Under the pieces are notes generated by a model that saw only the letters and a program-made list of their open reading frames with translations, was not told the origin of the DNA and did no database searches. A program made the position numbers and the translations under genes. Below are positions 3,762 to 9,533 of a DNA stretch of 9,533 bases, piece by piece (the first letter of the stretch is position 1; each line of letters begins with the position of its first letter). The DNA is taken from contig JALLOL010000083.1 of assembly GCA_027717875.1 (NCBI GenBank), positions 1-9,533 of the forward strand, read 5' to 3'. Source of the stretch: Acidobacteria bacterium AH-259-L09 (GTDB taxonomy: Bacteria > Acidobacteriota > UBA6911 > RPQK01).

Positions 3762-5405
3762 CTATTTTCCCTCGTAAATGGTATCGGCGAAAGTACGCCC
3801 TGTTGGGATCATGGGGAGCACGTGCTCCGTATATGGAACAATCACGTCCAAAACATAGGGTTTATCCGAGGCAAGCATCTCGTCGAGTGCCTCGGAAACT
3901 TCCTCCTTGGCAGTGATACGCCGAGCCGGCAGCCCAAATCCTTGTGCAATGGCAACAAAATCAGGATAGATCCCCTCGGGGTTGCGGGGATCGCCGATGA
4001 AAGTGTGAGCCCGGTTGCTCGAATAGAATCGGTCCTCCCACTGAGCCACCATGCCCAGATGCTGATTGTTTATGATCAAGGCCTTTACTGGAATTTCTTC
4101 CACATAGGCAGTCGCCAGCTCTTGTACGTTCATGATAAAACTGCCGTCGCCATCGATGTCAATGACCTCCCAGTCCGGGCGCCCCAGCTTCGCGCCCAAG
4201 GCGGCTGGATAACCAAATCCCATGGCCCCCAATCCTGCCGAGGTCAACATGGTTCGCGGATACAGGAATTTAAAGTACTGCGCTGCCCACATCTGATGCT
4301 GTCCCACGCCCGTAGTGATAATGGCCTTCCCCTGTGTCTTTTCAGAAAGAAGTTCCATGACGTACTGAGGCATAATCTGCTTTCCGTCATCCCGATAGCA
4401 AAAAGGCTTCTCCCGCTTCACTTGCTCCAGTTCCTCCAACCACCCTGTGTAGTCATTTTGCCCTAGATCCATTTTGTTTAACTGTTCCAGCACATAACAA
4501 ACGTCACTGGTAACGGGAATATGGGCGGTTTTCATCTTGTTGATCTCCGAAGCATCGATGTCTACATGGACGATCGTTCCGTGTTTAGCAAATTCCTCCA
4601 CTTTTCCCGTCACCCGGTCATCAAAACGAACACCGAAGGCCAAGAGAAGATCCGCCTGATTGACGGCATAATTGGCGTAAACAGCTCCATGCATTCCCAG
4701 CATGTCGAAACAGAGGGGGTGGTCGGCGGGGAAGCCTCCCAAACCCAAAACCGTCATGACGATCGGAATTCCAGTTTTTTCTACAAATTCATGGAGAACC
4801 CCTGAAGCACTGGCACAAATGATACCGTTTCCTGCATAAATGATCGGCTTTTTGGCACTGCGGATTGCACCGGCGATCTGCTCCAGTTCCCGAACTCCAG
4901 CTTCGATGTAAGGCCGATAACTGCGCAGATTCACCTCGGTGGGCCATTCCGGTACGCACTCGGACTGCTGGACGTTCTTTGGGATATCAATCAAAACCGG
5001 ACCTGGACGACCTGTCGAAGCGATATAAAATGCCTGTTTGACGACTCGAGGGAGATCTTCGACTCGCTGGACCAGATAGTTGTGCTTGGTGATGGGACGA
5101 GTAACCCCAACCACATCCGTTTCCTGAAATGCATCTTTGCCGATCATAGCCTGAGGGACCTGCCCCGTAATCGCGACAATCGGCACCGAGTCCATCTTGG
5201 CGTCGGCTTCCCTGGATACGTCAGCCACCAAGGCGTGGCATTGGAATCCCTTGCTTTGGATAGAATTCGCCACCTCATGGAGCGTATTCGAATTGCGGTC
5301 GACGGCTACGACCGTGGCACCCTCGGCGGCAAATAAACGGGTTGAAGCTTCTCCAATTCCCGCTGCCCCTCCAGTAACAATGGCACATTTGTTCCTCAAT
5401 CGCAT
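3762..5405 (-). CDS. ilvB: Chimeric ORF: SDR N-terminus fused to acetolactate synthase large subunit lacking its N-terminus
   Basis: 547 residues in two parts. Residues 1-70 are the start of a short-chain dehydrogenase: '[12 protein letters not shown]' gives the Rossmann TGxxxGIG motif, followed by 'VVAVDRN' and '[13 protein letters not shown]'. From Met71 the protein is acetolactate synthase large subunit: '[14 protein letters not shown]', '[15 protein letters not shown]' (132-146), the middle domain '[15 protein letters not shown]' (258-272), and the thiamine-diphosphate motif from Gly419-Asp-Gly to Asn446-Asn447, ending at a normal C-terminus. The ~100-residue N-terminus with the catalytic Glu is absent, so as written neither enzyme should work: the SDR also lacks its YxxxK half. 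The start codon lies 3 nt after the dehydratase stop, with GAAGG 7 nt upstream, so the SDR start is native and translationally coupled. The missing synthase N-terminus is present on the opposite strand at the right edge. Family identity is sure; whether the fusion exists in the cell is not. Confidence 0.85.
   Translation of the reverse strand: [547 protein letters not shown]
5193..5207. other. Junction between SDR and acetolactate synthase sequence
   Basis: On the minus strand the codons GCC GAC GCC AAG ATG (Ala67-Met71) form the switch point. To the left of it in the protein, 'DVSREADAK' is SDR-like. To the right, 'MDSVP' is synthase-like, and known synthases commonly have '[11 protein letters not shown]' or close variants at this place. 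Both parents could therefore carry the same ~12-15 bp here, so the breakpoint cannot be placed more exactly. No transposon end, recombinase-type site or repeat other than this possible microhomology is visible. Confidence 0.7.
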
Positions 5406-5408
5406 GGA

Positions 5409-6689
5409 TTAGCCTTCGAAGAAAGCTTCGTCCCGTTTCCGATACTTGTAGGCAATTTCTTCATCCAGCTCAATTCCCAGACCAGGCCGGTCGGGAACAG
5501 AAATGTAGCCATTTTTAATCATTGGCTGGTCGGCACCTTTGACCAGTTCATCGAAGAAGGGAACACCGGCGGCATGCCATTCCAGACACAAGAAGTTTGG
5601 AATGGCGGCACAGACGTGGGCAGAAGCCATGGTTCCGATGGGTCCCGATATATTGTGGGGCGCCACCGCGACGTAATACATTTCGGCCAGATCGGCAATG
5701 CGTCGGCCTTCCAGAAGTCCACCTGCCTTTTGCAGGTCCGGAGCAACGATGTTCGCCGCTTCAGCTTCCAGCAGCTCGTGAAACTGCGTGCGCATATAAT
5801 GATTTTCTCCGGTGGCGATGGGGACTCGAGTGGCTTGAGTGACCTGTCGTAAAGCAGCCATGTTTTCAGCCGGCGTAGGATCTTCAAGCCAGAGCAAGTT
5901 GAGATCCTCGCAAGCCCAGGCGAATTGCAGAATGTCGTTCACATTGAAGTTCCAGTGACAGTCAATAGCAAGGTCGATCTCATCGCCTATCGCACCGCGA
6001 GCGCCTTCGACCAGACTGAGCATGTATTCGATTTCCTGTCGGGTTAAAGCGCGGTTGAAGTCATCGCGAGAGTGAGGATTTGGCACATCCACGTCAAATT
6101 TCAAAGCCGTAAAGCCTTCTTGAACCATTTGAGAAGCCCGTCGCGCATAATCGTCAGGAGTGAAATACTCTCCGTGACCCGCTACCCCGTGATGTTTCAT
6201 GCGTAGATCCACTTTTTCTTGAGGCCTCTCGGAGGAGGAGGATTGACCTTCTTCCTTTCTATTCTTCATCCAAGCGGGAGTCCGAGGGACCAAGACAGCA
6301 GACAGGCTTTCCAAGCCGTGACCGGCGTGACAGTCGGCATAGATTCGGATTCGGTCTCTATATTTGCCCCCCAGAAACTGATAGAGGGGCATCTTGAATT
6401 TCTTTCCCAGCACGTCCCACAGGGCGGCTTCAATCCCGGAAATGGCATGATATATCATTCCCGAGCTTCCACCTGTGCTTCCGGCTGAGCGCATTTTTCG
6501 ACACAGGCGGTCAATATCTCGAGGATCTTCGCCCTCCAGAATTAGCCGATATTCGCGGATGGTGGCCGTCAACCCGGGGGCAAAGAAGGCTTCTCCATAG
6601 CCTACGATTCCTTCATCGGTCTTCACCTTGACAATGGTCCAGTCGTAGTTTGCCTCAATGACGCAGGTGCTGAGGGAGCTGATTTTCAT
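5409..6689 (-). CDS. Mandelate racemase/muconate lactonizing enzyme family dehydratase (enolase superfamily, sugar-acid type)
   Basis: Enolase-superfamily enzyme that probably dehydrates an acid sugar (D-galactonate dehydratase-like); the substrate cannot be read from the sequence. Numbered from the ATG at 6689: the N-terminal capping domain is followed by 'LKFDVD' (Lys197, Asp199), metal ligands Asp243 in 'DCHWNFN', Glu269 in 'WLEDP' and Glu295 in 'ATGEN', Asp318 in 'APDLQKAGG', His345 in 'APHNISGP' as likely general base, and Glu370 in 'LEWHA'. Length is 426 residues, about 30 more than many relatives, owing to a hydrophilic stretch near 135-173 ('EEGQSSSSERPQEK'). An upstream TTG at 6770 would add 27 residues coded entirely by short tandem repeats, so it is rejected. 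The chosen ATG has only GAAGG one base away, a poor spacing. The SDR start 3 nt downstream suggests a dehydratase-dehydrogenase pair in sugar-acid catabolism. Confidence 0.85.
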   Translation of the reverse strand: MKISSLSTCVIEANYDWTIVKVKTDEGIVGYGEAFFAPGLTATIREYRLILEGEDPRDIDRLCRKMRSAGSTGGSSGMIYHAISGIEAALWDVLGKKFKMPLYQFLGGKYRDRIRIYADCHAGHGLESLSAVLVPRTPAWMKNRKEEGQSSSSERPQEKVDLRMKHHGVAGHGEYFTPDDYARRASQMVQEGFTALKFDVDVPNPHSRDDFNRALTRQEIEYMLSLVEGARGAIGDEIDLAIDCHWNFNVNDILQFAWACEDLNLLWLEDPTPAENMAALRQVTQATRVPIATGENHYMRTQFHELLEAEAANIVAPDLQKAGGLLEGRRIADLAEMYYVAVAPHNISGPIGTMASAHVCAAIPNFLCLEWHAAGVPFFDELVKGADQPMIKNGYISVPDRPGLGIELDEEIAYKYRKRDEAFFEG

Positions 6690-6690
6690 A

Positions 6691-6713
6691 CCTTCGTGCT
6701 TTCGTGCTTTCGT
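6691..6713 (-). repeat. Octamer tandem repeat abutting the dehydratase start codon
   Basis: On the minus strand two exact copies of ACGAAAGC and a partial third (ACGAAGG) run up to one base before the dehydratase ATG. The repeat occupies exactly where the ribosome site should be; its last unit supplies a GAAGG. A change in copy number would alter the leader but not the reading frame of the chosen start. Confidence 0.6.
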
Positions 6714-9199: not shown

Positions 9200-9209
9200 T
9201 GCTACGCTG

Positions 9210-9238
9210 TTGCATTTGGGCGCCTCAAACGTTAGAAT
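9210..9238 (+). promoter_or_regulatory. Probable sigma70-type promoter of ilvB
   Basis: TTGCAT (9210-9215) and TAGAAT (9233-9238) resemble -35 and -10 boxes and are separated by exactly 17 nt. They lie 43 nt upstream of the ilvB ATG and just right of the inverted-repeat element. Two boxes with ideal spacing in front of a strong gene start are suggestive, but the match is from sequence pattern only. I see no clear leader peptide or attenuator in the 43-nt leader. Confidence 0.5.
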
Positions 9239-9281
9239 CGTGCCCTTCATTTTAGCGTAAGCAAAAGGAGTGGTAAGTATC

Positions 9282-9533
9282 ATGACAACGAATAGCACCC
9301 TGAATAAGGAAACTCGCGCCTTGAAGGGGTCGGACATTACGGTGGAGGCCCTGCTGCGAGAGGGTGTGGAGATAATCTTTGGGTACCCGGGAGGAGCCTC
9401 AATGGAAATCCATCAGGCTCTGACTCGGGTGGGTTCGGATCGAAAACTCCGAGTGGTACTCCCCCGGCACGAGCAGGGGGCCGTTTTTGCTGCGGAGGGG
9501 TATGCCAAGGCAACGGGTAAAGTCGGCGTGGCA
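9282..9533 (+). CDS. ilvB: Acetolactate synthase large subunit, N-terminal 84 codons (runs off window)
   Basis: First step of valine/leucine synthesis (two pyruvate to acetolactate) and the matching step for isoleucine. The visible part has a 16-residue leader, then '[32 protein letters not shown]' features: the 'FGYPGGA' TPP-binding loop (33-39) and the catalytic Glu64 in 'LPRHEQGA', followed by '[15 protein letters not shown]'. The ATG at 9282 is preceded by AAAAGGAG (9263-9270) with 11 nt spacing and by a good promoter candidate. It is cut by the window end, still in frame. It holds exactly the region that the minus-strand chimera at 3762-5405 lacks. Either it continues as a complete ilvB (a second copy), or it soon runs into SDR sequence as the reciprocal half of an inversion. 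Confidence 0.9.

Follow-up and report, generated by a model that had tools for sequence, protein, structure and literature searches.

The 9,533-nucleotide stretch of Acidobacteria bacterium AH-259-L09 analysed here (contig JALLOL010000083.1, positions 1 to 9,533; hereafter the window) carries ilvB, the gene for the large subunit of acetolactate synthase, in two parts encoded on opposite strands, the back part being fused in frame to the beginning of a short-chain dehydrogenase (SDR) gene. On sequence grounds, the two parts belong to one ilvB of 580 amino acids, and the segment between them is inverted relative to the related genomes. This arrangement is most probably a fold-back chimera formed during multiple displacement amplification (MDA) of a single cell; a biological inversion is not supported, and the ilvB and SDR genes of the cell itself are probably intact. 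Four lines of evidence are presented below, namely the gene order and the intact genes of the related genomes, the six bases shared at the join, the properties of known amplification chimeras and the position at which the contig ends.

The two parts of ilvB

The presence of complementary ilvB halves on opposite strands, from which the original prediction started, was confirmed by two open reading frames (ORFs), one at 3762-5405 on the minus strand and one beginning at 9282 on the plus strand and including Glu64, which sits in the motif PRHEQGA. The features concerned are the following:

3762..5405, minus strand: SDR-ilvB fusion ORF, 547 amino acids, in frame
3762..5207, minus strand: back part of ilvB (large subunit of acetolactate synthase), ADAKMDSVP through stop codon, in its native place beside the left flank
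5202..5207: join, six base pairs (GTCGGC) that fit both parents, placed by the limits of ilvB and SDR homology
5208..5405, minus strand: first 66 residues of the SDR (PF00106), cut at the join
9282..9533, plus strand: front part of ilvB, 84 residues from the ATG at 9282, with the TPP N domain (PF02776), running off the right edge

In the fusion ORF, residues 1-66 are those of the SDR, residues 67-68 (AD) fit both parents and clear synthase sequence starts from AK, directly before 'MDSVP'. Along it lie the Pfam domains adh_short (residues 6-70), TPP enzyme M (175-309) and TPP enzyme C (366-521).

The window was compared with seven genomes of the same family (G001 to G007) and with genomes of the same order, including G008, G012, G013, G016 and G018. 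G001 (72% complete) is closest to the window, with which it has 33% of the sampled 31-letter words in common; G002 belongs to the same genus (rated 65% complete), G003 and G007 belong to one other genus of the family, and G004 belongs to a third genus. A single contig of G001 (C499) matches the window at 1-3560 (97% identity) and 3738-5207 (99%) on one strand and at 9208-9533 (98%) on the other. Indeed, the DNA of the ilvB back part (window 3738-5207; C499 3707-5176) is 98.7% identical between the two and adjoins the left flank on the same side in both, and 473 of its 477 residues are identical to the G001 protein; the front part shares all of its 84 residues with that protein, the DNA identity being 97.9% over 9208-9533. 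In G001, ilvB is whole, with 580 amino acids from the ATG, and a peptide of 19 amino acids bridges the two halves found in the window. The sum proposed earlier for a restored protein (about 84, about 19 and 477 residues, hence about 580) is therefore matched by G001, which has exactly 19 residues between the counterparts of the halves and a total of 580. An intact ilvB product of 580 amino acids is also found as protein P0001, which differs from the window halves at 2 of the 561 residues compared. As for the SDR, residues 1-70 of the chimera share 93% identity with the first 70 residues of a whole SDR of 254 amino acids in G002, the gene of which lies beside a dehydratase gene and the end of murA.

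Gene order in related genomes

The inverted segment of the window contains three further genes:

5409..6770, minus strand: enolase-superfamily (MR/MLE) dehydratase-like gene (PF13378 and PF02746)
6782..8044, minus strand: murA (PF00275)
8041..9012, minus strand: murB (PF02873, PF01565), divergent from the start of ilvB as in the related genomes

In G003, G004 and G007, the genes for an amidase and a deiminase, ilvB and a divergent murB-murA pair are found on a single contig, which is the uninverted order; the murA homologue beside murB is 71-74% identical in these genomes and is cut by the contig end in G004. G006 has murB and ilvB adjacent and divergent, though truncated at a contig end, and in G005 the starts of murB and ilvB lie at the ends of two separate contigs. 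The family as a whole (seven genomes) thus comprises three genomes with the uninverted order, one with part of it, one that is broken at this place, G001 with other DNA upstream of ilvB, and G002 with neither gene. Indeed, murB was not found in G001, and neither ilvB nor murB was found in G002. Since the DNA upstream of ilvB in G001 is different, the native order cannot be told from this genome alone. At the level of the order, five genomes have both murB and ilvB (G008, G012, G013, G016 and G018), always on separate contigs.

The locus of G003, G004 and G007 has the same genes and neighbours as the window, and the divergent murB-ilvB pair of the window is native; the window differs from it in that the segment running from about residue 101 of ilvB toward the start of the gene and beyond is flipped. 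The side with murB and the ilvB start and the side with the ilvB back part and the deiminase are both native for the family, which leaves a single new join within the window, the one between them. Furthermore, the left half lies in the native left flank and the right half in the native murB flank, and the halves therefore account for exactly one gene. The flip proposed by the original prediction agrees with these comparisons: the segment is inverted relative to the related genomes, ilvB is natively divergent from murB-murA, and the dehydratase and SDR genes follow murA in G002.

The dehydratase and SDR genes behind murA were seen only in G002 and in the window. With the corresponding stretch (window 5202-6770), tblastn (E 1e-5) gave no match in the murB-murA stretches of G003, G005, G006, G007 and G008.

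The join and its microhomology

Homology to the ilvB gene of G001 stops at 5207 and homology to the SDR gene of G002 starts at 5202, and six bases (GTCGGC) are common to both. For this comparison and for that of the flanks, G001 and G002 were used as stand-ins for the two native ends. Among 200,000 random joins drawn between the two parent loci as a null model, 304 (0.15%) had at least six shared bases. The longest exact words shared within 300 bases on either side of the join comprise three of 9 bases in inverted orientation and one of 13 bases in direct orientation (native order), none of which is at the join. The 13-base word, CCAATGCCACGCC, is present in ilvB of G001 and in the SDR gene of G002, lies 25-54 bases off the join in an orientation unable to cause an inversion, and is probably due to chance. 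Of this word the window contains GGCGTGGCA, its own last nine bases, at 5232-5240 and at 9525-9533 in the same orientation, the first copy being 25 bases past the join.

Judged by the gene order of the related genomes, the join brings together two segments of opposite genomic orientation, and its partners are about 4.4 kb apart (window 5202-9533 plus 45 bases from G001), hence less than 10 kb. The chimeric join sequence, with up to three mismatches, was not found in any of the seven family genomes. A search of 5.8 billion clustered proteins returned no equal of the 547-residue chimera among the best 120 of 7,999 scored, although such a protein may be hidden inside the P0001 cluster. No recombinase family was detected by a Pfam scan of nine ORFs of the window, and no match to window 5000-9533 was obtained by megablast in a plasmid collection. 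The homology at the join is insufficient for an inversion of the recombinase type or by homologous recombination, and too short to mislead an assembler based on de Bruijn graphs; it is indicative of priming on microhomology, either in the cell or in the tube.

Likeness to amplification chimeras and origin of the contig

In a study of chimeras formed by MDA (Lasken and Stockwell 2007, PMC1855051), 406 of the 475 chimeras reported were inverted, 337 of these 406 had partners less than 10 kb apart, and 76.8% of the chimeras were primed on at least two complementary bases. The window resembles these inverted chimeras in its inverted join, in the distance between the partners and in the short complementary sequence available for priming (6 bases here, up to 21 in that report). 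It differs in that it is seen as an assembled contig and not as reads, and in that the amplification method is taken from a congener.

This congener is G002, the SDR of which is identical to protein P0121, named Acidobacteria bacterium AH-259-G07; five acidobacterial AH-259 names are present in the taxonomy. According to the available description (PMC8406227), AH-259 single cells were sorted, amplified by WGA-X, which is described as an MDA method, and assembled at SCGC following its reference 77 (PMC5519541); the SCGC protocol is given there as SPAdes v.3.0.0 with the options --careful and --sc and with 100 bp cut from each contig end. The same source (PMC8406227) mentions 227 low-coverage genomes with a completeness of at most 29%. 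Since G002 is rated 65% complete, it was probably sequenced further by another route. AH-259-G07 would come from the same plate and pipeline as these AH-259 cells, and this lineage was probably amplified from single cells.

The right end of the contig

In G001, 45 bases separate the sequence matching the right edge of the window from the stretch shared at the join. Four cases were modelled in an edge-centred de Bruijn graph at six values of K, from the window, these 45 bases and the SDR gene of G002. With a fold-back molecule, alone or together with native DNA, the unitig ended at 9578+K for all six values; at K = 55 this end is 9633, and trimming of 100 bases leaves 9533, which is the last base of the window. 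With native DNA and truly inverted DNA together, the end was at 9584 (9484 after trimming) for all six values. With a truly inverted genome alone, the unitig extended as far as the modelled DNA itself for five values of K and stopped at 10186 for K = 21. Within this model, the exact match at 9533 for K = 55 supports the fold-back molecule. A K of 55 is taken here as the default of SPAdes in --sc mode. A printed default for this single-cell mode was not found in the literature, and one single-cell study used K = 21, 33, 55 and 77. The window would be the whole trimmed contig, of which its odd length of 9,533 is suggestive. The fold-back model accounts for the right end only.

Proposed formation of the chimera

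While the DNA was being amplified, a 3' end displaced within the ilvB or SDR gene would have annealed through GTCGGC/GCCGAC to the opposite strand, at a distance of about 4.3 kb, and primed synthesis there. The resulting molecule would consist of the left flank, the back part of ilvB, the segment from SDR front to ilvB front in reversed orientation, and then the back part of ilvB again in reverse. In the assembly graph, such a molecule would appear as a stem, made of the left flank and the back part of ilvB, and a loop that runs from the front of ilvB to that of the SDR gene and could be entered from either side; if the chimeric side was taken, the loop would read as inverted. The contig would then stop on re-entry into stem DNA already used, and its ends would be trimmed. 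Contrary to the original prediction, the sequence beyond the right edge would be expected to continue as ilvB (for 24 residues as in G001) and not as the C-terminus of the SDR, the back part of which would either lie on a different contig or be missing.

Several points weigh against this explanation. The 45 bases and the SDR C-terminus were taken from related genomes and not from the cell of the window, the intact ilvB of P0001 likewise comes from close kin and not from the same cell, and the second side of the fold-back lies outside the window. The closest relative, G001, lacks murB beside ilvB; a resolvase fragment and further genes lie upstream instead. The agreement at 9533 was found with the length of the window already known, the trimming rule of 100 bases was borrowed from the centre that processed the congener, and the value of K is an assumed one, K = 77 giving a trimmed end of 9555 in the same model. 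We infer the single-cell origin of the window, K = 55, the status of 9533 as a contig end and the sequence past it. Finally, the last 55-mer shared ahead of the join can be left by two exits in the graphs of the fold-back molecule and of the mixed DNA, and by one in that of the pure inversion, so that the assembler, if the molecule was a fold-back, passed a fork by depth, by read pairs or arbitrarily.

Alternative explanations

A real, fixed chromosomal inversion of 4.3-4.4 kb, arisen by recombination on the 6-bp microhomology and breaking both ilvB and the SDR gene, would equally give a window exactly inverted relative to the related genomes and a number of shared bases at the join in excess of chance; moreover, as its graph has no fork at the join, passage of the assembler would need no explanation. 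It is nevertheless unlikely. Such an inversion would break a core gene of branched-chain amino acid synthesis, yet the pieces are without decay, the join is absent from all seven family genomes, and the modelled inverted genome alone gives no unitig end near 9533. It is improbable, too, that an inversion by microhomology in a living acidobacterial cell split ilvB and the SDR gene at once and left the cell with an in-frame SDR-synthase fusion and a dependence on branched-chain amino acids from outside. A reversible inversion, in which ilvB and the SDR gene would be turned on and off by mixed orientations within the population or the cell, has in its favour only the inverted order itself and is very improbable. 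Phase-variable invertons are flanked by inverted repeats, usually of at least 10 bases at both ends. The window resembles them in that a segment is opposite to the orientation in the related genomes, but it has no inverted repeat beyond the 6 bp at the join (the inverted words nearby reach 9 bases, off the join, and the 13-base word is direct), no recombinase among the ORFs scanned, and ends that lie inside two coding genes. Furthermore, the graph of native and inverted DNA together does not end at 9533. The original prediction had left open a real, even reversible, inversion or an assembly error, and so had allowed for an artefact. A real or reversible inversion is opposed by the sharing of only 6 bp at the join and by an end position that fits a fold-back at K = 55 with 100 bases trimmed.

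An artefact of assembly alone, in which a repeat in ilvB and the SDR gene confused the assembler in the absence of any chimeric molecule, is suggested by the fragmentation of the related assemblies (510 and 450 contigs) and by the dispersed repeats common in G001. However, the 6 bp shared by the parents (with G001 and G002 as stand-ins) are far below any K of at least 21, and the graph would have no reason to make the join without chimeric reads; this explanation is rejected as highly unlikely. If ilvB were present twice, intact from 9282 onward and as a separate damaged copy fused to the SDR gene, the right edge would likewise continue as a whole ilvB. This reading is also rejected, as hardly credible, because the two halves with their flanks amount to one native locus, and because G001 (itself 72% complete) has one such ilvB, its two other synthase-like matches being 25-27% identical.

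As biology, the fold-back chimera favoured here is of small importance. It is of more importance as a caution, as a contig from an amplified single cell can mimic a clean inversion that splits a gene and creates an in-frame fusion. Where the pipeline is known, the distance between the contig end and the expected second junction (here 45 bases, that is, 100 trimmed bases minus a K of 55) may flag such artefacts without the use of reads.

Other observations

In C499 of G001 (5549-6319), similarity to the window ends at window position 9208 and the resolvase fragment (PF00239) takes the place of murB upstream of ilvB, which could reflect a real rearrangement or another chimera. In contig C107 of G002 (3739-5125), the dehydratase gene is spread over two overlapping frames, owing to a frameshift or a sequencing error. 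The murB matches of G013 and G016 each contain one internal TGA, and murB of G018 is covered by two matches. Relatives of ilvB in a genome contig collection amounted to 80 loci kept, the best being 63% identical, and near kin were possibly left out. Hairpin-like intergenic repeats are present in the window at 9029-9201 and 2307-2372; the window has 98 matches in G001, and all but 4 of them lie on or just beside these two places, which indicates that such repeats are scattered in this lineage.

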